Below are positions 7,531 to 64,000 of a DNA stretch of 64,000 nt, in pieces. Every line of letters starts with the position of its first letter. The stretch's first letter is position 1. The notes beneath the pieces are model-generated. The model saw only the letters and a program-made list of their open reading frames with translations, was not told where the DNA came from and searched no databases. The position numbers and the translations under genes were made by a program. Location: assembly GCA_030525945.1 (NCBI GenBank), contig JAUNDT010000004.1, forward strand, positions 62,001 through 126,000, given 5' to 3'. This stretch comes from Coriobacteriaceae bacterium. GTDB taxonomy: Bacteria; Actinomycetota; Coriobacteriia; Coriobacteriales; Coriobacteriaceae.

Positions 7531-8310
7531 CTATTCTTCGCTGAGCTTGAACCCGATGCCCCAGACCGTTTTGATGTACGCATCGGTGCCCGAGGATTTG
7601 AGTTTGGCGCGGATATTGGACATGTGCACGGTCACCGTGCTGTCGTCGCCGGCGTAGGGCTCGCCCCAGGCGGCCTCGAAGAGGTCCTGCTTGGACCACG
7701 CGCGCTTCGGCTGTTCCATGAGCTTCTCGAGTAGGTTGAACTCAATGCGCGTAAGCGCGACCGGTTCTCCGCATGCCGTGAACGTGCGGGCGTTTGCGTC
7801 GAGGCGCCATGAGCGGAAGTTGAGCGACCCCGACGGGGAAGCGCCCCGGCTCGCGTGTTCCCGAGCGTCGCCCAGGCCGGAAGCGCGGGGTGCCCGGTGG
7901 CGTAACTGAACCTCCACGCGAGCGGCGAGCTCGTCAAGGTCGAAGGGCTTGGTGAGGTAGTCGTCCGCACCGAGCTTGAGCAGGTCGATCCGGTCGGTGG
8001 TAGACGTGCGCGCCGAGATGACGATCACGGGAAGGCCGGCGTCGCGTGCACGAAGGGCTCCGATGAGCTCCTCGCCGGTTGCCCCGGGGAGCATGAGGTC
8101 GCAAATCACCAGGTCATAGGGGAGGTCTGCGCGCTTCTCGTCCGCCGTCTCGGTCGCTCCGCCGGCATGCGCCAGCTCGCCTCCCAGCCGCATGATGCCT
8201 TCGGTCCCCGAGTACGCCTGCGTGCAGGTGTGCCCCTGCCGCGCGAGGCGTACGGCGATGATCTCGTTGATGTCCGCATCGTCCTCGACGATGAGTATGC
8301 GAGCCCCCAT
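7531..8310 (-). CDS. OmpR/PhoB-family response regulator
   Basis: A 259-residue DNA-binding regulator. The receiver domain holds the acidic pair in ILIVEDDAD, the phospho-acceptor Asp in VICDLMLPG, the Thr/Ser in VISARTS and Lys in LTKPFD. It carries an unusual insert of about 20 residues (AHAGGATETADEKRADLP) before the acceptor Asp. A Gly/Ser linker leads to a winged-helix domain ending YIKTVWGIGFKL. RBS GGGAGG precedes the ATG at 8310. It heads the series that continues with the ATPase, permease and histidine kinase, and should be phosphorylated by that kinase. Confidence 0.92.
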   Translation of the reverse strand: MGARILIVEDDADINEIIAVRLARQGHTCTQAYSGTEGIMRLGGELAHAGGATETADEKRADLPYDLVICDLMLPGATGEELIGALRARDAGLPVIVISARTSTTDRIDLLKLGADDYLTKPFDLDELAARVEVQLRHRAPRASGLGDAREHASRGASPSGSLNFRSWRLDANARTFTACGEPVALTRIEFNLLEKLMEQPKRAWSKQDLFEAAWGEPYAGDDSTVTVHMSNIRAKLKSSGTDAYIKTVWGIGFKLSEE

Positions 8311-8431
8311 TTTGGCCTCCCTCGGCGCCTGGATTGCGATTGGTGGCTTCATTTTGTTTCGAATGCGCCGTCAAGGCAAGGGCTGGAGTGGTCCATGCGA
8401 TAAAAGTCGTGTGCTGCAGGGGTGACAGCTT

Positions 8432-8554
8432 GCAAATGCGCGGATAATTTTAGATAGACGGAATATAAGTTGATTTCGCTCTTTCCCTACCTGCGGTTTT
8501 GTTGGATTGTATTTCCGCCATACGTCCACGTTGCAAATTTATCCGCGCATTTGC
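8432..8554. repeat. Long palindromic element E (second copy of the element C family)
   Basis: The arms GCAAATGCGCGGATAA and TTATCCGCGCATTTGC match the ends of element C except for TGGG/CCCA changed to CGCG on both sides, a compensating change. The interior shares CTACCTGCGG-T-TTT with element C. It occupies most of the gap between the response regulator and ABC exporter genes. Confidence 0.7.
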
Positions 8555-8607
8555 GTATTATGCATGCGAAGTCAGCGTGCGGCCCGTCTTGCCGTGCTGT
8601 TCGCGGG

Positions 8608-10413
<1,806 letters not shown>

Positions 10414-10585
10414 GGCAGCTCCTTGCATGGTCGCGGAACCGTGGGGAATTGGCTTTTGCAAGGTTATCACCCGAAGTGGACTCCAGGTCAAGGCGCGCCG
10501 CGAACCTGCGAGGTCGCGTTACCGGGCGGGGGAACGGGGTATCATCCTTACCATTGCCTGTGCCTATGAAAGGGTTGAACTCTCG

Positions 10586-12571
10586 ATGAACCACGATGAG
10601 ATTCTGGAGATGCTCCGGCGCGCCGGCGTGGAGATGCCGGGTGGCGAGGAGCCCATTGACGTTGAGGTCGAGGTGGAGGACGTGCCCGACGGTGCCGCGG
10701 AGCGAACGTCCGCGCCGCAGGGGGCCGAGGCCCCCAAAACGGCACGCGAGCGCAAGAGGGCCGCACAGGCCGAGCGCCGTGCGCGCAAGGGCAGTGGCTC
10801 CGCGAACGCCGGGGCGCCCGTGCCTCCGTTCGTCCAGCGCCTCGCGCAGTGGAGCCGCCGCGCCCTCGTGGTGGCGGTGGTCCTGCTCATCGTGATCGGC
10901 GCGCTGTGCTACTGGTGGTTCCATCCGGCGCTGAACCTTCAGAGTCCGCGCGTGTGGAGCTGGATCATCCTCGCCGCCATCGTGGCCATGCTGGCGCTGA
11001 AGGTCGCGGGCCTTCGCTCGACAAAGCGCGCCGTGCTCTTCAATCGCCTGGCTTGGATTCCCGCGCTCGTAATCGTGGCCTTCTTCGCCGGCGTGCTCAT
11101 GGGCGCGCCGTTCATGCCCGGTAACGCCGCGCGCTATGCGACGGTGCTCAAAACGACCGAGGGCGACTTTACCAAGGACATCCAGGAGGTCGACTACGCC
11201 GATGTGCCCGTGATCGACCGTGCTTCCGCGCAGCTGCTCGGCTCACGCGCCATGGGCTCGATTCCGGAGTTCGTGAGCCAGTTCGAGATCTCCGAGGCCT
11301 ACAGCCAAATCAACTACCAGGGTCGCCCTGTGCGCGTGAGCCCGCTCACGTATGCCGACCTGTTCAAGTGGCTGAGTAACCGCGCCGAGGGCATCCCCGC
11401 CTACGTGCTGGTTGACATGGTCACGCAGGAGGCCGAGGTCGTGCGGCTCACCGAGCCCATCCGCTATTCCGAGAGCGAGCCGCTCGCCCGCAACATCGAT
11501 CGCTATGTGCAGCTCAGGTACCCCACCTACATGTTCGACCAGAAGAGCTTCGAGCTCGACGAGGACGGCACGCCGTGGTGGGTCTTCCCGGTGCAAAAGC
11601 GCACCATCGGCCTGTTCGAGGGCACGACCATCCAGCGCGTAGTGCTGGTGAACGCCTGCACGGGCGAGACCAAGGACTACGCGATCGAGGATTGCCCCAC
11701 CTGGGTGGATCGCGCGTACCCGAGCGACCTGCTCATTGAGCAGTACAACTGGAGCGGCGCCTATAAGAACGGTTGGCTCAACTCCTGGCTCGGCCAGCAG
11801 GGCGTGGTGCGCACCACGCAGGGCACCGATGGCGAGCTTGGGTACAACTACCTGGCGCAAGGTGATGACATCTACCTGTATACCGGCGTGAGCTCGGTGA
11901 CTGCGGACAGCTCCAACGTCGGCTTCATCCTCGTGAACCAGCGCACGGGCGAGTCCCATTACTATCCGGTGGCGGGTGCCACGGAGGATTCGGCGATGGC
12001 CTCTGCTGAGGGCCAGGTGCAGAACCTGCGCTACCAGGCCACGTATCCGTTGCTGTTGAATGTTGCCGGGCAGCCCACCTACTTCATGGCCCTCAAGGAC
12101 AGCGCGGGGCTTGTCAAGATGTACGCCATGATCAATGTCGAGCACTACCAGAGCGTGGCGACCGGCTCCACGGTGGCGGCCACGCAGGAGAGTTATCTGC
12201 AGATGCTCGCCTCCTCGGGCGCGCTTTCCGAGGAGGAGGCAGCGGCATCCGGCGCCGAGGTCGAGGTATCGGGCAAGATTGCGTCCATGGCTCAGGCGGT
12301 TATCGACGGGAACTCGCACTTCTATCTCACGCTTGAGGGGGACGACGCCATCTACGACGTCGAGCTCCCGGGTCTGGTGGGTATCGTGCGCTACGGCGTG
12401 GGCGACAAGATTGCCTTGAGCTACGCCAAGGGCGCGGAAGAGGACGATGATCCGGCCGATTCCGGGCTTCGCCGCGTGACCGCCCTGGAGGGGAAGCGTG
12501 CAAAGGCGAATAGGGCCGAAGCCAAGGACGCCGCCGGCGAGGAGCCTGCTCAGGAGGCTGCTGCCTCCTAG
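10586..12571 (+). CDS. Large membrane-anchored protein of unknown function
   Basis: A 661-residue protein. An acidic then strongly basic cytoplasmic N-terminus (1-90) leads to three membrane helices (about 93-112, 123-143 and 155-175) and a domain of some 450 residues that should lie outside the membrane. That domain is rich in aromatic residues and has repeated strand-like segments, for example RTIGLFEG and GDDIYLYTGVSS; its last 100 residues look like a small beta barrel, and the tail is Ala/Glu-rich. No catalytic motif is evident and I do not recognise the family. The start at 10586 (MNHDEILEML) is preferred over an ATG at 10301 that would overlap the divergent exporter gene. A strong terminator follows. 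Confidence 0.75.
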   Translation: MNHDEILEMLRRAGVEMPGGEEPIDVEVEVEDVPDGAAERTSAPQGAEAPKTARERKRAAQAERRARKGSGSANAGAPVPPFVQRLAQWSRRALVVAVVLLIVIGALCYWWFHPALNLQSPRVWSWIILAAIVAMLALKVAGLRSTKRAVLFNRLAWIPALVIVAFFAGVLMGAPFMPGNAARYATVLKTTEGDFTKDIQEVDYADVPVIDRASAQLLGSRAMGSIPEFVSQFEISEAYSQINYQGRPVRVSPLTYADLFKWLSNRAEGIPAYVLVDMVTQEAEVVRLTEPIRYSESEPLARNIDRYVQLRYPTYMFDQKSFELDEDGTPWWVFPVQKRTIGLFEGTTIQRVVLVNACTGETKDYAIEDCPTWVDRAYPSDLLIEQYNWSGAYKNGWLNSWLGQQGVVRTTQGTDGELGYNYLAQGDDIYLYTGVSSVTADSSNVGFILVNQRTGESHYYPVAGATEDSAMASAEGQVQNLRYQATYPLLLNVAGQPTYFMALKDSAGLVKMYAMINVEHYQSVATGSTVAATQESYLQMLASSGALSEEEAAASGAEVEVSGKIASMAQAVIDGNSHFYLTLEGDDAIYDVELPGLVGIVRYGVGDKIALSYAKGAEEDDDPADSGLRRVTALEGKRAKANRAEAKDAAGEEPAQEAAAS

Positions 12572-36287: not shown

Positions 36288-37220
36288 ATGTTTTACACCC
36301 TGACCGCAAATCCCGCCGTTGATATGACGGTTTCCAGCCCGGCTCTCGTTGCCGACGAGAACGTCCGCGCCGGTTCCGCCAGCTACACCGCCAACGGCAA
36401 GGGCCTTGACGTGTCTTTCGCCCTCAAGAAGTTCGGCGTCGACTCCGTCGCTCTCGGCTTCTTCGGTGGCTTCACGGGTAAGTACATCGTCGACGAGACC
36501 ATGAACCTCGGCTGCCTGTGCCGTCCCGTGTGGATCGACGGCATCACCCGCATCTGCGCGTACATCAACGACGGCGAGCACGAGTACGGCGTTCTGAACC
36601 CGGGCGCTCCGCTCACCCCGCAGTACGAGGAGCAGCTCTACAACATCCTCGACACCAGCTCTGACATGGACTGCCTCGTGGTTTCCGGCTCCGTGCCGCC
36701 CCGCGCCTCCAAGGACTTCCTCAACCAGGTCATGGAGCACGCGCAGTCCCGCGGTGCCGACGTTGTGCTGGACCTCTCCTCCGACAAGCTCAAGGAGCTC
36801 GCCGAGAAGAAGCCCCTGCTCATCAAGCCGAACCACCACGAGATGAAGGCGATCTTCGGCGTGCCGGTGGAGACCGACGACGACGTGCGCGTGGCCATGA
36901 AGATGGCTCACGACCGTGGCGTTCAGAACGTCCTGCTTACCCGCGGTAGCCGCGGCGACGCCTACTTCTCCAACGGCGAGGACATCTGGTACGCCAAGCG
37001 CGAGTTCAACATCAAGCTCGTTTCCTCCGTGTGCGCCGGCGACTGCACGCTCGCCGCGTTCCTGCTCAAGTGGTACAAGAACCGCGACAACGTCGAGGAG
37101 GCGCTCAAGCTCGCTATGGCTACCGGCGCCAACGTTGCCGAGTCCGTCGGCCTGGGCGACTTCGGCCGTGTTGACGAGTACAGCAAGCGCGTGACTGTAC
37201 GCAAGCTCGACCGCAAGTAA
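36288..37220 (+). CDS. 1-phosphofructokinase paralogue (PfkB family)
   Basis: A 310-residue PfkB kinase, clearly related along its length to the fruK product at 24.95 kb (YTLTANPA, NGKGL, VSGSVPP, LLIKPN, VCAGDCTLAAFLLKW). The catalytic Asp is in CAGD. It probably phosphorylates fructose 1-phosphate or a similar sugar phosphate such as tagatose 6-phosphate. RBS TAGGAGG precedes the ATG. It follows ptsI but is cut off from it by a terminator, and its codon bias resembles that of ptsH and ptsI, so strong, perhaps constitutive, expression is expected. Confidence 0.88.
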   Translation: MFYTLTANPAVDMTVSSPALVADENVRAGSASYTANGKGLDVSFALKKFGVDSVALGFFGGFTGKYIVDETMNLGCLCRPVWIDGITRICAYINDGEHEYGVLNPGAPLTPQYEEQLYNILDTSSDMDCLVVSGSVPPRASKDFLNQVMEHAQSRGADVVLDLSSDKLKELAEKKPLLIKPNHHEMKAIFGVPVETDDDVRVAMKMAHDRGVQNVLLTRGSRGDAYFSNGEDIWYAKREFNIKLVSSVCAGDCTLAAFLLKWYKNRDNVEEALKLAMATGANVAESVGLGDFGRVDEYSKRVTVRKLDRK

Positions 37221-37225
37221 ACCCC

Positions 37226-37265
37226 AAAATGCGTCATTTAGGGTCAGACCCTAAATGACGCATTT
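37226..37265. repeat. GGGTC-AG-ACCC palindrome, left flank of the Y1 transposase gene
   Basis: A perfect 18-bp stem with AAAATGCGTCATTTAGGGTC as the left arm, ending in a T-tract. It starts 6 bp after the kinase stop codon and ends at the stop codon of the transposase gene, so it could also terminate transcription from both sides. Confidence 0.85.
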
Positions 37266-38015
37266 TTATATGCGCGTTGTCCGGGAAATGATGCTGCGGC
37301 CGATTCCCGTGATGCGTTCAATCTGCTTGACCGTCAGGCCCTCTGAGCGAAGTGCTTGGAGGGCCTGATTGCGTTCCATTTTCTTCTCTGACTTGAGTTT
37401 GGGAATGCGATCTGCGCCCAATATGCTTTGTGCGAGCTCCAGCGCCTCATCATCGGTTACGCGCCTGCCTGGTTTAAAGACGTAACCACCGTATTCCGAT
37501 GCTTCTGAAAACGCTTTGAAGTTGCCCTGTCCACCAATCAGATCCAGAACGGGAGCTAGATAGGTCCGCGTCGAATCTCCATTCAAATAGTCCCCGTAGC
37601 TGCTCCATGGGTATTGAGCGGCGGGGCAGACGCCCGCTTTTGCGGGGTTGTCGTGGACGTATCTCAGGGCGCACAGAAGTTGCTCGTCAGTTGCAATTCT
37701 TACGCTGTGGTATCGGCCATCAAAAACGGGCCCTATATGACCGGCAGTTTTGTTGAATCGGACCGCGTATGAGGTCGCAAGGTCATGCATGAAATCCGGG
37801 AGTCGGTCGCTGATGTCAAAAAGAATGAGATGGACATGATTGCTCATGAGGCACCATGCGATGAGCCTAATATCATGGCGAGCGATATATTCGTCGATGT
37901 AAAAAAGAAAGGACCTATGGTCCTCCTCGCATTCAAATAGAATCTGATTTCCCGAACCCTTAAGCACCACGTGGTAGTACCCTGATTCGGCTCGTTCCCT
38001 AGGTCGCCTTGGCAT
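37266..38015 (-). CDS. REP-associated tyrosine (Y1/HUH) transposase
   Basis: A 249-residue Y1 transposase related to IS200 and to RAYT enzymes. The HUH motif is MSNHVHLILFD (His60, His62) and the catalytic Tyr is in LRYVHDNPAKAG (about Tyr118). Unlike IS200 enzymes it has a C-terminal extension ending in a helix-turn-helix (GLTVKQIERITGIGRSIISRT). RBS GGAAGGGGG precedes the ATG. Copies of one palindrome family stand on either side (37226-37265 and 38077-38115), the arrangement expected for a RAYT and its REP-like substrates. No IS ends are seen, so it is probably a resident single-copy gene. Confidence 0.88.
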   Translation of the reverse strand: MPRRPRERAESGYYHVVLKGSGNQILFECEEDHRSFLFYIDEYIARHDIRLIAWCLMSNHVHLILFDISDRLPDFMHDLATSYAVRFNKTAGHIGPVFDGRYHSVRIATDEQLLCALRYVHDNPAKAGVCPAAQYPWSSYGDYLNGDSTRTYLAPVLDLIGGQGNFKAFSEASEYGGYVFKPGRRVTDDEALELAQSILGADRIPKLKSEKKMERNQALQALRSEGLTVKQIERITGIGRSIISRTTRI

Positions 38016-44999: not shown

Positions 45000-46403
45000 C
45001 TACGTGCGCGGGCGCTTGAACTCCGTGGGCTTCACGGTGATGCCACCTGAGGTGCGCCGCACGGTCGGGCGGCGGCGAGAATCCGAAGCGGCCTTCGGAT
45101 TCTTGACGGCGCGCTCGCTGCTCGGAGCATCTGCTGCGCCCTGAGGCGATTCGACCAGCTCGCCCGATGCGCCGGCTGCCTTGTTCGCAGCTTGCTTCTG
45201 CTCTGTGCTTTCTGCAGAAATGTTCATCGGCTGCTCGCTGGAGCTCTCGGATAGACCGCGCTCCGACTTCTTGCTCGCCTTGCTACGGCCGAGCTTGGCG
45301 ATCGTGCGGTCCCAGCGGTCGTGAATACTGGCGTTGTGAGCGCTTTTAAGGCCCAAAAGCGGCGCGGCGAGGATCGTGGGAGCAATGAACGTGATCAGGC
45401 GCCACAGAAGGTATCCTGCGGGCGCTGCGCTTCCGTAAAAATGCCCGAGGAATAGTGCGAAGCCGCCCTCGGCGCCGCCGGTGCCACCGGGCAGGGGCAC
45501 CGCGGAGCTCAGCAGCTGCACAAAGGCGCTGGCCGCCATGACCGAGAAGAAGTCGACGTCGTGGTGGCCGAAGGCGAGCATGAGGAAATAGGGAACAAGA
45601 TAGAAGAAGGCGAGCTGCGCCATGGTGATGAGCACTGTGAGGGCCATCGACTTGAAGTGGCCGGCGGCGAGTCGAAATTTGTCCGAGAACGAGTGGATCT
45701 CGGCGTCGACGAACGCGTGCCAGGCCTCGGTGCGCTCGCGCGACACGCCCACACGTTCGAGCACGCCAATGCCCCAGTGGGCGAATCGGATGACCATGCC
45801 CGGCATGAGGGCGATGGCAAAGATGGCGAGCAGAATGAGGACGTGCCCGCCAAAACTGAACACGCACAGCAGCGTGATGTCGCCGTATTGCTTGGCGAAA
45901 AACGGCATGCGCGCAAGCATGAGGATCGCGCCCCAGAGCACCAGACCGAATTGGTACACGATAAAGCGGGTGAACTGGATCGCGCCCGCCTCGCCAACGT
46001 TCTGGCCGGCCTTGGTGAGGCGGTAGATCTGCGCGGGAGTGGAGCCCATCATCATGGGCGTGAGGTTGCCGAAGAAGATGCCGCTCGCCTCAACCGAGAT
46101 GAGGTCGCGGATGCCCACGGGGCTTTTGGGGTCAAGCCACACGGCGATGGCGTAGGCGAGGATGCCGAAGATAAGGTAGAGCAGCATGCACAGGCACGCG
46201 ACCACAAGCCACGGCACCTGAACGTTGCGCATGGCATCCCAGAATTGGGCGACCTGCCCGGTTGTGACGAGATAGACGATGTAGCCCATGAGCACGATGC
46301 CGATGAAGATCGCGCCGCGGCGAGCCATCTTGTGATCGTCGCCGCCGGCGATTTGCGCGTCGACCTGCGGGGCGGGGGAGATATGGTTCGAAGACTCTGG
46401 CAC
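45000..46403 (-). CDS. Flippase-like integral membrane protein (LPG synthase TM/UPF0104 family)
   Basis: A 467-residue membrane protein of the family related to the flippase half of lysylphosphatidylglycerol synthase. About eight membrane helices span residues 28-370. The marker regions are EASGIFFGNLTPMMMGSTPAQIYRL and SSAVPLPGGTGGAEGGFALFL. The C-terminal 95 residues are a hydrophilic Ser/Lys/Ala-rich cytoplasmic tail ending in a basic cluster. Lipid substrate unknown. The start is GTG at 46403, behind AAGGAGG; the longer frame upstream lacks a ribosome site. Confidence 0.85.
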   Translation of the reverse strand: MPESSNHISPAPQVDAQIAGGDDHKMARRGAIFIGIVLMGYIVYLVTTGQVAQFWDAMRNVQVPWLVVACLCMLLYLIFGILAYAIAVWLDPKSPVGIRDLISVEASGIFFGNLTPMMMGSTPAQIYRLTKAGQNVGEAGAIQFTRFIVYQFGLVLWGAILMLARMPFFAKQYGDITLLCVFSFGGHVLILLAIFAIALMPGMVIRFAHWGIGVLERVGVSRERTEAWHAFVDAEIHSFSDKFRLAAGHFKSMALTVLITMAQLAFFYLVPYFLMLAFGHHDVDFFSVMAASAFVQLLSSAVPLPGGTGGAEGGFALFLGHFYGSAAPAGYLLWRLITFIAPTILAAPLLGLKSAHNASIHDRWDRTIAKLGRSKASKKSERGLSESSSEQPMNISAESTEQKQAANKAAGASGELVESPQGAADAPSSERAVKNPKAASDSRRRPTVRRTSGGITVKPTEFKRPRT

Positions 46404-46551
46404 AGGGCCTCCTTGGTAGCGTTTGACCCCTCTATTGTAAGAGGTCTTGCATACATGCCGTTCGGTGAGTCCCACGCGCGGTAAGATTGACCAGCTATAG
46501 ACGGCGTATTCTCAATTTGTTCACAAGTTTTAAAAAAGTTGAGATTCTCGC

Positions 46552-46580
46552 TTGCACTCGTTGGAATCTTTCCGTATAGT
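46552..46580 (+). promoter_or_regulatory. Promoter of the tRNA-Gln/Glu/Glu cluster
   Basis: -35 TTGCAC (46552-46557), a 17-bp spacer and -10 TATAGT (46575-46580), 32 bp before the first tRNA. Confidence 0.8.
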
Positions 46581-46612
46581 ACTTTCTCGCGCTGAGGCGT
46601 GACGCGCATCAC

Positions 46613-46686
46613 TGGGATGTCGTCTAATGGCAGGACAGCGGATTCTGGTTCCGTCAATGGGGGTTCGACTCCCTCCATCCCAGCCA
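46613..46686 (+). tRNA. tRNA-Gln (anticodon CTG)
   Basis: Full cloverleaf: acceptor arm TGGGATG/CATCCCA, anticodon loop TTCTGGT with CTG at positions 34-36, T-arm GGGGTTCGACTCCCT-type and encoded CCA end (GCCA). First gene of a three-tRNA cluster. Confidence 0.95.
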
Positions 46687-46714
46687 TTGTGTGCGCTGCT
46701 TGCCTTTCGCTTAT

Positions 46715-46791
46715 GGCCCGTTCGTCTAGCGGTTCAGGACGCCGCCCTCTCAAGGCGGAGATCACCGGTTCGAATCCGGTACGGGCTACCA
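46715..46791 (+). tRNA. tRNA-Glu (anticodon CTC), copy 1
   Basis: Acceptor GGCCCGT/ACGGGCT, D-arm with TCTAGCGGTTCAGGA, anticodon stem-loop CCGCC-CTCTCAA-GGCGG giving CTC, T-arm CCGGTTCGAATCCGG, and encoded ACCA. Confidence 0.95.
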
Positions 46792-46831
46792 TGAGTTCTT
46801 CGGGACACTCCAACAGTCCCATTACATATAT

Positions 46832-46908
46832 GGCCCGTTCGTCTAGCGGTTCAGGACGCCGCCCTCTCAAGGCGGAGATCACCGGTTCGAATCCGGTACG
46901 GGCTACCA
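46832..46908 (+). tRNA. tRNA-Glu (anticodon CTC), copy 2
   Basis: Identical in sequence to the copy at 46715-46791, 40 bp downstream, with encoded CCA. Confidence 0.95.
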
Positions 46909-47288
46909 AAACTGAATTTGGCGAACCACGTTCTCTGTGGTTCGCCATTTTGTATGTCGTTCTCTTGTGTAGTGCAACGTGTATAACCGGAGGCCTCTGT
47001 TCAATCCGGGCTATAGGACAAAAAGTATGTCTGATTCATGTCTGATTCTGGACCGTTCGCACTGTACAAGCGTTCTAACGGGAAAATTTTTTACCTTATA
47101 GCCCGAGACCGTCTTACCGCACAGTGGTGCCGGTCTTTGTTCGTTTTAGCGTGTCGAAGCAACTGTACTTTCACCGTCTGGCCATCCCTCATTCCCACAC
47201 GTCACAGCGTTTTTCGCCTAATGATCGAGGGAGGTCACAGATAGAGGCATAATTTGGATTAAAGCCATCTGTCTGGAGGAGGGGAAAT
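46909..47288. other. Intergenic region after the tRNA cluster
   Basis: 380 bp. A terminator for the tRNA transcript occupies 46920-46951. A short direct repeat (TGTCTGATTC twice, near 47025-47047) follows. The remainder holds no gene I can support. Confidence 0.5.
46920..46951 (+). terminator. Rho-independent terminator of the tRNA cluster
   Basis: GGCGAACCAC pairs with GTGGTTCGCC around a 7-base loop, then ATTTTGT. Confidence 0.88.
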
Positions 47289-47672
47289 ATGCGTGAGCTC
47301 AATATCTATCAACGGAATGGATATTACAATAGGGAAGACTACCTGCGTTGCATGTCGGAGGACTACTGCGTTCCCTACGACGTCGTGCACGCCATGGCGG
47401 ACAAGCTTGGGCGGGATGAGGAATTCGATGGGCTCGTTGAAGCTGTGAAGAACTACGAGGGCGGGGATGGCGAGAGGTGTCTGAGGGTAAGCCTGAAGAC
47501 CGACCCGTACAGGAGCCGCGGATACATTGACCGGACGGAATACCTTCAGGATATGTCCATGAAGCACCGCATTCCGCTTTCGTACGTCGAGAAATTCTCG
47601 GATATTCTCGGGGCTTCACGTGACTTCGACGGGCTCGACAGGCTGCTCTCGCTCATAGGCGAGCTGATTTAG
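47289..47672 (+). CDS. Small protein with an internal duplication, function unknown
   Basis: A 127-residue soluble protein. Residues 11-49 and 78-116 align without gaps and share 16 of 39 positions; both copies start with GY and end FDGL, with conserved YL, MS and P in between. The repeats look helical. There is no signal peptide or membrane helix. A strong ribosome site (GGAGGAGGGG) makes real expression likely. I do not recognise the family. No neighbour suggests a role: tRNAs lie upstream and the EIIA-Glc gene is convergent downstream. Confidence 0.75.
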   Translation: MRELNIYQRNGYYNREDYLRCMSEDYCVPYDVVHAMADKLGRDEEFDGLVEAVKNYEGGDGERCLRVSLKTDPYRSRGYIDRTEYLQDMSMKHRIPLSYVEKFSDILGASRDFDGLDRLLSLIGELI

Positions 47673-48062
47673 GAGCAAAGGAACGCGCGCCTTATTGGGT
47701 CGTGCTTATTGAAGAGAGAATGATCGAGTTGACTGTCTCTTCCAACCTCAAATCCTCTGATATTGAGTGCCTCTGTTGTTCGATACTGCACCCGCGTGAG
47801 GAGGGTGCATTCTTTCTCCGCCGCCGGTGCAGAAATTGATATGCCTGACCTCCAGCCTGAGCCCATTGATGTCGAGTGCAGCGTAGACGTCGACTGGTGG
47901 CTTCGGCTCTCCGAGTGATGTCTGTTGGGCGTTGTGCGCGCCTAATCGCCGTTCAGGCGGTTTTCATTCATGTCGCGCGAATGTACTTCTTAACAAAAAC
48001 GTGCCCGGATGCGACTCTCTCGCACCCGGGCACGCCACGCAAAGCAGAAAAACCTCTCGCGA
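47673..48062. other. Intergenic region between convergent genes
   Basis: 390 bp. Apart from the minus-strand terminator of the EIIA-Glc gene (47994-48034) nothing is recognised. A 65-codon minus-strand frame (47669-47866) has no ribosome site or recognisable motif. Confidence 0.5.
47994..48034 (-). terminator. Rho-independent terminator of the EIIA-Glc gene
   Basis: On the minus strand CGTGCCCGGGTGCGA pairs with TCGCATCCGGGCACG around GAGAG and is followed by TTTTTGTT. Confidence 0.88.
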
Positions 48063-59498: not shown

Positions 59499-60800
59499 AT
59501 GGATATCAATCACTACGTTGCCGAGTGCGCCCGAAAGGCCAAGGAGGCCTCACGCTCGCTCGGTTTTGCCAGCGACGAGGCGCGTTGCGCGGCGGTCCGG
59601 TCGATGGCCGCGGCTTTGCGTGAGCGCGCCGGTGAGGTCCTGGCTGCCAACGAGCGCGATATGGACGCCGCTCGGAGCGCTGGCACGAGTGAGGGCTTGC
59701 TCGATCGCCTGCTGCTCACGCCCGAGCGCATCGAGAGCATGGCGGCGGGTTTGGAAAAGCTCGCGGACCTGCCCGATCCGGTGGGCCGCGTGCTTGAGGA
59801 GCGCACTATCGATCAGGGTGTGAACTTGCGCCGCGTGAGCGTACCGCTCGGTCTTGTGGCCATGGTGTATGAGGCCCGCCCCAATGTGACCGCCGATGCC
59901 GCCGGCATTTGCGTCCGCACGGGCAATGCGTGCATCCTGCGCGGCGGTTCCCTGGCGCAGGAGAGCTGCGTTGCCATCGCGCGCATTCTCGCCGATGCCG
60001 TGGAGGCGAGCGGGTTCGCCCGCGAGGCCGTGAGCATTATCGAGACCACGGATCGCGCCGCGACGGCGGCCCTTATGGCGCAGCGCGGCGTGGTCGACGT
60101 GCTCATTCCGCGTGGCGGCGCGGGCCTCATCCAGCGTTGCGTGCGCGAGAGCCTCGTGCCGGTGATCGAGACGGGCACGGGCAATTGCCATACCTATGTT
60201 CACGAAAGTGCGGACCTTGCGAAGGCGCTCGCCATTATCATGAACGCCAAAACACAGCGCGTGGGCGTATGCAACGCCTGCGAGTCGATTCTGGTGGATG
60301 AGGCGGTTGCAGATAAGCTCCTTCCCGTTCTGCTTGCCGCGCTCGCGGGTGCGGGCGTTGCGATTCATGCCGATGAGCGCGTGTGCGGTGCAGCGAATCG
60401 CCTTGCGGCCGAGGGCCGCTTGGACGCCGGGCTCGCCCGGGAGTGCGTGAAGAACGCAACCGAAGAAGATTGGGGCCGCGAATACCTGGCCCTGGAGGTG
60501 AGCGTGAAGTGCGTGAGCGGTCTTGATGAGGCGATTGCGCACGTGAATCGCTACGGAACCGGTCACTCCGAGTGCATCGTCGCCGAGGACCCCACGGCCT
60601 GCGACCGTTTCCTGCGCGAGGTTGACGCCGCTGCCGTCTACGCCAATGCGAGCACCCGCTTCACCGACGGCGGTGAGTTCGGACTGGGTGCCGAAATCGG
60701 CATTTCGACCCAAAAGCTGCACGCCCGAGGCCCCTTCGCCGCTGAGGCGCTCACCACATACAAGTACGAGCTTCGCGGATGCGGTCAGGTGCGCCCGTGA
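59499..60800 (+). CDS. proA: Glutamate-5-semialdehyde dehydrogenase (gamma-glutamyl phosphate reductase)
   Basis: A 433-residue enzyme that reduces gamma-glutamyl phosphate with NADPH, after which the product cyclises towards proline. Marker regions are VPLGLVAMVYEARPNVTADAAG, the cofactor-loop sequence VIETGTGNCHTYV and the catalytic Cys in RVGVCNACES. RBS GGGGGAG lies close to the ATG. Its last codons overlap the next gene: the TGA stop is part of a GTGA that may start the LuxR-type gene. proC is not in the window. Confidence 0.96.
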   Translation: MDINHYVAECARKAKEASRSLGFASDEARCAAVRSMAAALRERAGEVLAANERDMDAARSAGTSEGLLDRLLLTPERIESMAAGLEKLADLPDPVGRVLEERTIDQGVNLRRVSVPLGLVAMVYEARPNVTADAAGICVRTGNACILRGGSLAQESCVAIARILADAVEASGFAREAVSIIETTDRAATAALMAQRGVVDVLIPRGGAGLIQRCVRESLVPVIETGTGNCHTYVHESADLAKALAIIMNAKTQRVGVCNACESILVDEAVADKLLPVLLAALAGAGVAIHADERVCGAANRLAAEGRLDAGLARECVKNATEEDWGREYLALEVSVKCVSGLDEAIAHVNRYGTGHSECIVAEDPTACDRFLREVDAAAVYANASTRFTDGGEFGLGAEIGISTQKLHARGPFAAEALTTYKYELRGCGQVRP

Positions 60801-63424
60801 TTAGGGGCAAGGTGTTCGACAGGTATAGAACATACGGCATGGTCTGTGCCCTGTACCTTTCGTGCCCGTATCATCTGTTCAACGGGTACACGGGTCCGCT
60901 TTTTGACCGACGTGCAATCTTTGCTGTTATTGGCTTGTTGGTCGGGTGTTTTGCGTATCGGTTGTATTTGGATGAAAGGGGCGACCAGTCCTCTTCCGAC
61001 CCATCTCCTTCGAAGTTTATTGAAGCGTTGATCTTGATTCTTACGGTGTTTTCCATCGGAATAGAGCTTGCGGATCTCCCGTTTTACTTTGCCGGTGATG
61101 TGGAGAGCGAGTCCTTGGCGTTCCTGTCTCCCGCCCTGTCCGGCCTAATTTCAACGTATATCCTCAAGTTCGAGCCAGTGGTCATTTTTCTCGGTGCCGC
61201 GCTTGCGTCGTTTGCTTTTTTCCGCGCGCATGATTTAGATGAGGTGGCGGTGAAAAAGAATTGCGTCTGTAGTGGGCTTCCATCTCGTAACTCGCTTGTT
61301 GCCATCCCATTGCTACTTGGATGTACTGGGGCGGCAACAAGACTTGTTTGGTCGATTTTCGAGACACCTGCGTACGGCTCTCCCGTTTCGCCTAAGGTCG
61401 TTATGTCTGGGTTAATCGCTTTGGCATTATGTGTCTTATTGGCTTTTGTATTTTTGCTGGTCGAGCGTGGGGCACATTATTTGCTATTGAACATAGCTCA
61501 AGATAAACGTTTTGCTAGGATCGGCTTCGTTCAGCTGCTGTTTGTCAGTATGTGTTCGGGATACCTGGCGTGTATTATTGCAATTCGCTATGCATATGTT
61601 CCCTCGATTGGCATTGCCTTTACCCCAATTCTAATTGCCTTCGTCTTGGCGTCCTCTGTGTTCATTTTTCGTCATGCAGAGATGCCGCCTCATAGTGTTG
61701 AAGATGCTGAAAACGCAGTCGATGGGTTGACGAAGCTGCTTAGCGAGCAGCATGGCTTGTCACAGCGTGAGTCGCTTTTCGCATCGTATGTGCTATTGGG
61801 AAAAACAGGTAAAGAAATCGCATCGTGCTGTGAGGTCGCTCCGGGAACGGTTCGCAGCACGTTGTATCGGGCGTACAAGAAGCTCGATGTGCACGGCGAA
61901 GATGAGTTGCGCAGTCTTCTTAAACGGGATACCGATGTTTCGGAATATCTGAACCAGGGCTCTTTTGGTTCAGAAAAGTTGGATCGTTCCGAGCTGGTTG
62001 ATGATAAGGATGAGTGTTCCGCTATTGCCCGCGCACGCTTGGCGGGTTCCGTCGGTTCGGTTCTAATTATGGGCGCATGCGTCAGCATACTGTTTCCCTT
62101 GAAAGTCGCCGGGAGCTCTTGGGGCGTCAGCCACCTTCCTTTAGTGGGGGTTTCCTTGGCGTTTGTCACGATAGGCTTGTCTGGGGTGGCACGTAGGTCT
62201 TTTGTTCAAATCGGGCTCGGCGCCCATCTTCGACCCGCAACACCTGCTGCCAACAGGCTCGAAATGATTTTTGGGTTTGTCTGGTCGTTCATTGTATTTC
62301 TATCTGCTGCGTTTTGCCTTTCGTACGTAAGTCACGGAAAGCTCATGCAGCTGTTCGGATCCTACTCACCCACTATGGCAATTGTCTCTTATGCCGCTTT
62401 GTCGGTGCAATTGCTGACGCACATCGATAGCCTGATCGGGGAATGGAATAGAGCCTCCGCTTTACAGATAGCCGTTTCAATGGTCTTAGGCATGTTTCTC
62501 TCCTATGCGGGGGGCAATGCGTTGGTGCTTGGTGTCATTCTGTGCGCTCTTTTTTTAATGTCTTATTCTCGGCGGCCCCAGCGTGTCAATGAAGGCGATC
62601 GCTCGGAATGCTCCGGTGGTGACACTGGAGAAAGGGGCTATGGCGAGGGGCTCCTATGCGCCCTCCTTGCTCTTTGTTTTGAGGAGTGGTGGAGGTCTTT
62701 GGGCCAACCATCCTACATGCTCAGCATTGTGCCGCTCTTGGTCTCTCTTCTTGTTGCCTACGTTTTTGCATCTCGCAGGTGGTTCTATCCCCACTATTCC
62801 TTCATGGACGCCGTGTGTGATTGCCTGTTGGCTGTTCTTATCACAGTTGTAGGTGGCGGTAGCATGGTCTCCTTGCTGCTGTCCTCTATCTTCCTGTTCT
62901 GCTCAATGCTGGGGAATGCTGGCTTGGGGCCGGCGATGCGTACCTCGTTGTTTTTCGCGGGGGCCGCTATTGTTGGTTCGCTATTAGTTGTCAATAAGCT
63001 CCAAGACATCGCTGCGGTGCCTTCGTTGTTGATCATTGAACTGCTGGGGTCTGGTCATGGGTTTCTGATAGCGGTGGGGGCCATAATATCAGTCATCTGC
63101 ACGCTTGCCGGTCCGTTACTTTGGCGTGTGGCAAGAATAGGATGGATGAATCACGAGGCGTATTCATGTTCTTGTGAGTTGGATGGTGAGTCGGGTGCAC
63201 TGCCTCGTCGTCAGAAGGCGCTTCTTGTTTCGAGGGGACTATCTGATCTGCAGGCGGAAATCTTGTTGTTGACGGCGCAAGGGGCAACGGCACAGGCAAT
63301 TTCCGATACGGTCTTTTATGCTCCCGCGACTGTTAAAGCGTTGCGTACGGCGTCGTATCGTCAATTGCGGATACGAGACCGTGCTCAATTAATATCACTA
63401 TTGTCGCAGGTAAAAGACGTGTAA
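60797..63424 (+). CDS. Giant membrane regulator with two membrane-LuxR modules
   Basis: An 875-residue protein built as helices, DNA-binding domain, helices, DNA-binding domain. The first half has about eight membrane segments and a LuxR-type HTH at about 319-377 (GLSQRESLFASYVLLGKTGKEIA, APGTVRSTLYRAYKKL). The second half has about 12 segments and a LuxR-type HTH at about 812-871 (GLSDLQAEILLLTAQGATAQAIS, APATVKALRTASYRQL). Coriobacteria carry many single membrane-LuxR proteins; two in one chain is unusual. Base composition is visibly more AT-rich than its neighbours. The GTG at 60797 overlaps the proA stop; an ATG at 60779 is an alternative. A secreted protein gene follows. Confidence 0.85.
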   Translation: MIRGKVFDRYRTYGMVCALYLSCPYHLFNGYTGPLFDRRAIFAVIGLLVGCFAYRLYLDERGDQSSSDPSPSKFIEALILILTVFSIGIELADLPFYFAGDVESESLAFLSPALSGLISTYILKFEPVVIFLGAALASFAFFRAHDLDEVAVKKNCVCSGLPSRNSLVAIPLLLGCTGAATRLVWSIFETPAYGSPVSPKVVMSGLIALALCVLLAFVFLLVERGAHYLLLNIAQDKRFARIGFVQLLFVSMCSGYLACIIAIRYAYVPSIGIAFTPILIAFVLASSVFIFRHAEMPPHSVEDAENAVDGLTKLLSEQHGLSQRESLFASYVLLGKTGKEIASCCEVAPGTVRSTLYRAYKKLDVHGEDELRSLLKRDTDVSEYLNQGSFGSEKLDRSELVDDKDECSAIARARLAGSVGSVLIMGACVSILFPLKVAGSSWGVSHLPLVGVSLAFVTIGLSGVARRSFVQIGLGAHLRPATPAANRLEMIFGFVWSFIVFLSAAFCLSYVSHGKLMQLFGSYSPTMAIVSYAALSVQLLTHIDSLIGEWNRASALQIAVSMVLGMFLSYAGGNALVLGVILCALFLMSYSRRPQRVNEGDRSECSGGDTGERGYGEGLLCALLALCFEEWWRSLGQPSYMLSIVPLLVSLLVAYVFASRRWFYPHYSFMDAVCDCLLAVLITVVGGGSMVSLLLSSIFLFCSMLGNAGLGPAMRTSLFFAGAAIVGSLLVVNKLQDIAAVPSLLIIELLGSGHGFLIAVGAIISVICTLAGPLLWRVARIGWMNHEAYSCSCELDGESGALPRRQKALLVSRGLSDLQAEILLLTAQGATAQAISDTVFYAPATVKALRTASYRQLRIRDRAQLISLLSQVKDV

Positions 63425-63532
63425 GCGCATTTTGCGACATACATATACTCGTTGCTTACATACAGATCTGCCTATTTAAGACATGCTGTCCTTGCGCCGA
63501 CGCACCGGGCAACACCATTGAAAGGAGATCTG

Positions 63533-64000
63533 ATGAAGCGTCAGTCTCTTGCCAAGATCGCATTCGCATCTTGTGCGGTTGCCGTCAGCTTGATGACGGC
63601 AACACCCGTTTTCGCCAACCCCGTTTCCGACACACCGGAAACGGAAGTCTCCACGTTCGCAAATAATGCGGACACCGGTTTTGCGTTCAACTTAGGCTGG
63701 GGAGGCAAAACCGGCACAGGTTTTCGTCGCAAGGATGACAGCAGCTCTCTGTACATCAAGATTCTCGGCTACAGCGGTAACCCGCTTCGACTGTACGTGG
63801 ACGGCGCCTATGACAATAACGGGTCTGGAGCCATAAATTGTACCCAAGGTGTGTACCGCTCGAATCATAAGGGCGAATGGGAGATGTGGAACCTGGTGAA
63901 GGAGAACGGCCGTCATTCCGCACGGTTGACGTCTTGGGCAGAAAGTGGGCCAGGATCCGTGAACGGTGTCTGGAGCCCTGATTGCGTCGGTCACTTCCAA
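63533..64000 (+). CDS. Secreted DUF2712-like protein (3' end outside window)
   Basis: 156 codons are seen from the ATG at 63533 (RBS GAAAGGAG) with no stop before the edge. A clear signal peptide (basic MKRQSLAK, hydrophobic core, ATPVFA cleavage site near residue 28) precedes a beta-rich domain: FAFNLGWGGKTGTGFRRK, SSSLYIKIL, CTQGVYRSNHKGEWEMW and NGVWSPDC near the visible end. This pattern recalls DUF2712 proteins of Firmicutes, small secreted proteins of unknown role often near transporters. It is 108 bp after the double LuxR-type gene, whose target it may be. Confidence 0.7.
   Translation, partial: MKRQSLAKIAFASCAVAVSLMTATPVFANPVSDTPETEVSTFANNADTGFAFNLGWGGKTGTGFRRKDDSSSLYIKILGYSGNPLRLYVDGAYDNNGSGAINCTQGVYRSNHKGEWEMWNLVKENGRHSARLTSWAESGPGSVNGVWSPDCVGHFQ

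Follow-up and report, generated by a model that had tools for sequence, protein, structure and literature searches.

What does one polypeptide with two membrane modules and two DNA-binding heads regulate, and does it act as one regulator or as two? The question is raised by a reading frame near the end of a 64,000-nucleotide stretch of Coriobacteriaceae bacterium DNA (GenBank assembly GCA_030525945.1, contig JAUNDT010000004.1, positions 62,001 to 126,000 of the forward strand; the window), which belongs to the 1.88 Mb genome of a gut Collinsella. The frame lies between proA and a gene for a secreted protein and encodes a LuxR-type regulator with two helix-turn-helix (HTH) domains. The anatomy of this protein, its old fusion, the gene cassette behind it and a promoter block in between are evident from sequence comparison and argue, on balance, for a local membrane one-component activator of the cassette, in which the two HTHs would serve as a built-in pair.

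The regulator frame runs without an internal stop from an ATG inside the end of proA; the alternative GTG start at 60797 gives 875 residues and a 4 bp overlap with the proA stop. Pfam GerE matched two stretches, the best at residues 327-377 (E = 9.4e-16; 57.6 bits against a cut-off of 23.5), and AlphaFold2, given ten sequences, modeled each HTH as a complete NarL-type domain of four helices (helices 329-382 and 823-878, block-mean pLDDT about 70-87). By Pfam and AlphaFold2, both heads are predicted to have the four-helix HTH of the LuxR/GerE superfamily. Hydropathy places about 7 transmembrane (TM) segments ahead of HTH1 and about 8 ahead of HTH2, and aligned relatives have 7-8 and about 8-12 at these places. 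Similarity between the two membrane modules is undetectable (hhalign probability 0.9%), which rules out the internal duplication of one module. The original prediction of two complete membrane and HTH modules with clearly different sequences is borne out by the single 881-residue frame, the two predicted HTH folds and the unrelated membrane modules.

A sequencing frameshift or missed stop between the modules, which the original prediction had asked about, is ruled out. The complete chromosome of Collinsella stercoris DSM 13279 encodes an 888-residue homologue (43% identity over residues 5-879) in an unbroken frame, many unbroken full-length frames occur elsewhere, and no homologue has a stop between the modules. 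A profile made from 17 two-HTH proteins found matches in 39 of 67 genomes and five of the six genera of the family, including full-length two-HTH frames; a survey of the phylum for such regulators scored two candidates per genome. The fetched Coriobacteriales loci yielded 52 two-HTH proteins, or 41 after near copies were removed. Leave-one-out profile scoring assigned the N-terminal HTHs to their own lineage in 41/41 cases and the C-terminal HTHs in 40/41. Because the heads form two separate lineages, the fusion is old on this sequence evidence, and head order has been kept since before these genera split.

The two heads conserve different residues. In NarL numbering, the N-terminal heads keep R188 (30/41), R193 (39/41) and K197 (41/41), and the C-terminal heads keep G170 (41/41), R191 (34/41) and Y195 (36/41). 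NarL positions 188, 189 and 192 contact DNA. An HTH that lacked its DNA-contact residues would have counted against the original prediction; instead, the fold and basic recognition-helix residues are kept in both. A functionally meaningless gene fusion in which one HTH is a relic would explain why the first helix of HTH2 reads LSDLQ, having lost the canonical RE, and why the general GerE profile fits HTH2 less well than HTH1. We consider this explanation very improbable, since the HTH2 signature persists across genera and the model supports its fold with fair confidence.

The original prediction took the secreted gene as the natural target of the regulator. A conserved link and a shared promoter block support that choice, but the likely target, judged from gene order, is wider: a whole ABC cassette that continues past the window and is followed by pyrR and then pyrB (called by sequence). 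A permease search, independent of the regulator, found the cassette in 46 of 397 Coriobacteriales genomes and 25 of 123 genera. Every permease-found cassette with a complete adjacent LuxR-type regulator of two-domain length (31/31, near copies included) has both HTHs on one chain. In the comparison of fused and split forms called for in the original prediction, a split regulator pair was seen at none of the permease-found loci in these 397 genomes. No complete single-HTH regulator was present within 4.5 kb upstream among the cassettes examined; at L080, a distant cassette permease has a single-HTH TM-LuxR about 4.7 kb upstream. In about 14 cassettes for which enough upstream sequence is available, no two-HTH regulator is nearby, and contig ends cut the regulators in L095, L096 and L099. 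The co-occurrence of regulator and secreted gene was upheld in the permease-found cassettes, with the promoter block between them. A second two-HTH membrane regulator of 874 residues is encoded in the window's own genome (L045 4580-9870), directly behind another ABC transporter with an ATPase and two permeases.

The promoter block emerged from a motif search of 16 gaps between regulator and secreted gene, which returned 16.2 bits of information compared with 8.6-9.9 bits in ten shuffled sets. The block, approximately ATATCGSSTGACTACAGACA, begins about 20 nt past the regulator stop codon, and the window copy scores well above the second-best site in the window (13.2 bits). At a threshold of 17 bits, 17 of the 24 non-redundant cassette regulators have the block behind them, compared with none of the 17 two-HTH regulators that lack a cassette. 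It occurs in seven non-redundant loci that were not used in training (L053, L054, both L056 regulators, L106, L038 and L108). Among cassettes without a recognized regulator the block was present in 1/15, L099, the regulator of which is cut by the contig end, and no block was found upstream of the secreted genes in Bacillota cassettes. The 12-bp core alone has about as many genome-wide matches as a reversed control, and specificity is limited to the full block. A site within the secreted coding sequence of L097/L117 was taken as chance. Two different two-HTH regulators adjoin one cassette back to back at L056 (8847-13741) and L057 (3907-8801), each followed by its own block. In one metagenome-assembled genome (L058/L129) the regulator, block and dyad are kept and the secreted gene is gone; the sister genome L055 retains it. 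Within 11 kb of L038 (2885-13711, G016 contig 14), a region that is partly duplicated, a palindromic block, TGTCTACAGACR, recurs several times ahead of different genes.

Alignment of 18 loci on the block revealed a predicted promoter. Column 39 is A in 16/18 and column 43 is T in 17/18, corresponding to bases 2 and 6 of a -10 hexamer; the -10 columns lie exactly 17 bp past CAGACA/CATACA and were not used for the alignment. The block would thus span about -50 to -31. LuxR-type activators usually overlap the -35 element. The hexamers of the predicted promoter depart from consensus, and for that reason it was not picked up when the window was scanned for sigma-70 sites.

Table 1. Features of the regulator, promoter and cassette. 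L032 is the window locus extended downstream; window coordinate = L032 coordinate + 56000.
Feature	Window coordinates	Strand	L032 coordinates	Basis or remark
Double-HTH membrane regulator	60779..63424	+		881 aa; unbroken single frame and full-length homologues
Membrane module 1, aa 1-306, about 7-8 TM	60779..61696	+		Hydropathy; extent inferred
HTH1, LuxR/GerE type, aa 323-382	61745..61924	+		Pfam GerE 9.4e-16; four helices, pLDDT about 70-83
Membrane module 2, aa 419-800	62033..63178	+		Strict hydropathy: 8 TM here, 8-12 in relatives
HTH2, divergent LuxR type, aa 818-878	63230..63412	+		Second GerE stretch; four helices, pLDDT about 72-87; own conserved lineage
Conserved promoter/operator block ATACTCGTTGCTTACATACAG	63445..63465	+		23.5 bits
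Predicted -35 hexamer CATACA	63459..63464	+		Columns 15-20, 18-locus alignment
Predicted -10 hexamer CATGCT	63482..63487	+		Columns 38-43; 17 bp after -35
Imperfect dyad TGCGCCGACGCA, 5/6 pairs, at predicted start site	63493..63504	+		18-locus alignment
Ribosome-binding site AAAGGAG of secreted gene	63521..63527	+		Sequence
Secreted DUF2712-like protein, Sec signal aa 1-28	63533..64000	+	7533-8015	160 aa (156 in window); ends 15 bp past window
Anchored protein			8092-8769	
Permease 1 (ABC-2)			8753-9655	
Permease 2 (ABC-2)			9652-10494	Weak DUF2705 match
ATPase			10491-11168	
DUF5028-like anchored protein			11158-11823	
C39-like peptidase			11820-12548	Motif FQNPEFPxGCE; closes cassette

A gapless dyad of at least 5/6 pairs is present at the predicted start site in 11/18 loci, mostly with the same center and differing in sequence; shuffled controls gave a mean of 1.4 and a maximum of 6 (2000 shuffles). 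A dyad fixed in position and variable in sequence is expected of an operator that co-evolves with its regulator, and the protein could be a repressor that blocks transcription from this site (about -1 to +11) until a signal releases it. This arrangement is quite unlikely, given that the better conserved element is the upstream block in the usual activator position and that seven loci have no good dyad. Activation is favored because the characterized transmembrane LuxR relatives DadR, HcdR and CadR are activators (PMC9734109), and because the block lies upstream of a weak -10 element.

Three regulators bear on the division of labor between the modules. L042, L047 and L106 have the order HTH1-TM-HTH2; the N-terminal membrane module is gone and its HTH is retained. 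A separate gene for the first membrane module is absent upstream in L047 and L106, and the region about 1.5 kb upstream in L042 is less clear. These forms mean that head number is more constant than sensor number. The regulators of L042 and L047, both from Collinsella, have an NYN-type and an FtsH-like neighbor gene, as judged by eye. The original prediction had offered two functions for the paired modules, binding two half-sites of one operator or answering two signals. The first gains support from these three proteins, with DNA binding itself a prediction, and the second is weakened by them. Two independent regulators on one chain, each module with its own signal and each HTH with its own site or promoter, would form a two-input gate. 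Such a gate would suit the unrelated membrane modules, the different conserved recognition residues of the two HTHs and the fact that the upstream block and the dyad are both candidate sites; we think it unlikely, as HTH1 outlasts its membrane module and the window has a single strong block ahead of the cassette.

For the local activator we infer that the membrane part perceives a signal, that both heads bind jointly at the block and that the cassette is activated. An extracellular or membrane-borne signal, such as a peptide, an antimicrobial or the cassette's own product, would alter the membrane modules. By analogy with the Agr partners described below and with Lan/Cpr systems, a peptide or antimicrobial is a candidate. 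The two tethered cytoplasmic heads would then bind as an intramolecular pair at the block overlapping the -35 element and recruit RNA polymerase to the weak -10 promoter of the secreted gene; the start-site dyad may be an alternative or additional target of this chain. The likely output, and the weakest step, would be a secreted antagonistic protein together with self-protection by the transporter.

Several observations weigh against this activator model. The membrane part of the AlphaFold2 regulator model is poor (mean pLDDT 51.7), and 17 two-HTH regulators have no such cassette. A good block is missing behind 7 of the 24 non-redundant cassette regulators, and the block matrix was trained on 12 sites, making the enrichment partly circular. 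For two unlike heads, a symmetric dyad is not the obvious site. The cassette ATPase scores 180.9 bits for TIGR03740, the lantibiotic protection model, below the cut-off of 309.75.

TIGR03740 is nonetheless the top NCBIfam model for this ATPase (2.8e-53 here; 6.6e-49 in a Bacillus cassette), which has the signature GxNGSGKTMLMR. LanFEG/CprABC transporters combine one nucleotide-binding domain (NBD) with two permeases under two-component control (PMC5786555). The cassette likewise encodes one NBD of about 225 residues and two separate permeases of about 280-300 residues in one operon (L032 8753-11168), with an accessory anchored protein and a dedicated signal system. It differs in having a Sec-secreted 160-residue protein as neighbor and an ATPase under the TIGR03740 cut-off, and no lanthipeptide biosynthesis genes were seen in the window operon. 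A C39-like peptidase similar to the one that closes the cassette stands beside an Erysipelotrichaceae cassette (L172 11117-11794).

The secreted protein was originally described as DUF2712-like and 108 bp downstream. The spacer from regulator stop to secreted ATG is exactly 108 bp, and 13 of 20 relatives match DUF2712 (PF10916; E up to 0.1, best 1e-7); the window protein itself scores 18.6 bits, under the gathering cut-off of 22. It shares with DUF2712 proteins its size, its signal peptide and the C-terminal motif GxWSPD[SC], here GVWSPDC. AlphaFold2 predicts an all-beta protein with a beta-sandwich (pLDDT 81.7). A fold search with this model returned the N-terminal C2-like domain of XepA (Z 9.2), PirA (7.7), many C2-like and carbohydrate-binding beta-sandwiches, and GOLD domains. 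XepA is cytotoxic (PMC6834076). These model-based matches probably reflect a common arrangement only. No sequence relative was found in the PDB, and neither Pfam nor NCBIfam gave the family a Lactococcin 972 bacteriocin match.

The carbohydrate-binding modules and GOLD domains among these fold neighbors, besides XepA and PirA, would also suit a surface, adhesion or envelope-stress system in which the beta-sandwich protein binds glycans or membranes. This output is a little short of an even prospect and is compatible with the activator mechanism. The kinship of the transporter to lantibiotic-protection ATPases and the quorum-type partners of the cassette in Bacillota argue against it.

Those partners came to light when named genomes were scanned with an ATPase fragment. 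Lachnospiraceae, Oscillospiraceae, Clostridium, Bacillaceae and Bifidobacterium have this cassette too, together with a secreted GxWSPD[SC] protein. Beside the cassette are a GHKL kinase of AgrC-like type and/or a LytTR response regulator (L127, L141, L154, L175), AgrB (L141, L174), an ECF sigma factor (L173), a NarL-type response regulator (L183) or, by eye, a response regulator and kinase pair (L172). The window cassette has no AgrC/AgrA. From these gene neighborhoods, the two-headed LuxR occupies the position held elsewhere by sensing systems of other kinds. In several Bacillota cassettes that position is taken by Agr quorum sensing (AgrB/AgrC/AgrA), a two-component system with LytTR DNA binding, unrelated to the LuxR regulator of the window.

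The closest known regulators are the LuxR activators of Coriobacteriia with 10-12 TM segments, DadR, CadR and HcdR (Dong et al. 2022, PMC9734109). Like the window regulator, these are one-component local activators, abundant in Coriobacteriia, with a multi-TM domain and a C-terminal LuxR HTH. They have one HTH per chain and stand beside a metabolic enzyme, whereas the window regulator has two HTHs and two membrane modules and stands beside a secreted/ABC cassette. Module 2 fits the pattern of 10-12 TM segments before a C-terminal HTH in many relatives (8-12 TM), whereas module 1 has 7-8. Comparison of either module with three single-HTH TM-LuxRs by hhalign gave a probability of 0.1%, in a family that is itself less than 20% identical (PMC9734109). 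ToxR/CadC-type regulators are also membrane-anchored and bind DNA from the membrane, as predicted here; they have a single TM helix and one winged-helix domain (PMC5430869, PMC11856585). The main text of PMC9734109 does not mention a fused, two-HTH or dimer form. The two-headed variant of transmembrane LuxR regulators is real, recurrent and, within the open-access literature searched, apparently undescribed. In the open-access literature searched, the cassette is named nowhere, and no paper names DUF2712, DUF2705 or DUF5028.

The suspicion of acquisition, raised originally by a base composition unlike that of proA, was upheld. The G+C content is 0.513 in the regulator, 0.662 in proA and 0.629 in the window, and the AT-richer patch is the entire cassette (0.526 compared with 0.644 in the flanks). 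The cassette is AT-richer than its flanks at 11 of 14 host loci measured. A survey of the genus by permease found it in 14 of 45 genomes. It adjoins proA here and in C. intestinalis and lies at another chromosomal place in C. stercoris, where, as in many relatives, an HD-domain gene comes after proA. The low G+C content, the patchy distribution in the genus and the differing chromosomal places fit horizontal spread. Behind proA (L193, L195, L201), two Collinsella species carry the cassette and a third carries a lone two-HTH regulator; the slot just behind proA is a possible insertion hot spot. Further AT-richer patches occur in the window at 37001-38000 and 46001-48000 (G+C 0.52-0.57 compared with 0.63).

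Taken further, and tentatively enough that it would sooner prove wrong than right, the regulator may belong to an undescribed, widespread class of polytopic activators in which one chain is the DNA-binding dimer. With a different membrane sensor for each head, such a chain would act as a logic gate for a mobile cassette of secreted weapons, one that Agr-type quorum sensing runs in other phyla. Transmembrane regulators pose the problem of how a protein fixed in the membrane locates and holds a dimeric operator; both heads on one chain together with a predicted 21-bp target in many species make this problem directly testable. The cassette ties an unstudied secreted family to lantibiotic-type protection and exchangeable signaling modules in common gut bacteria.
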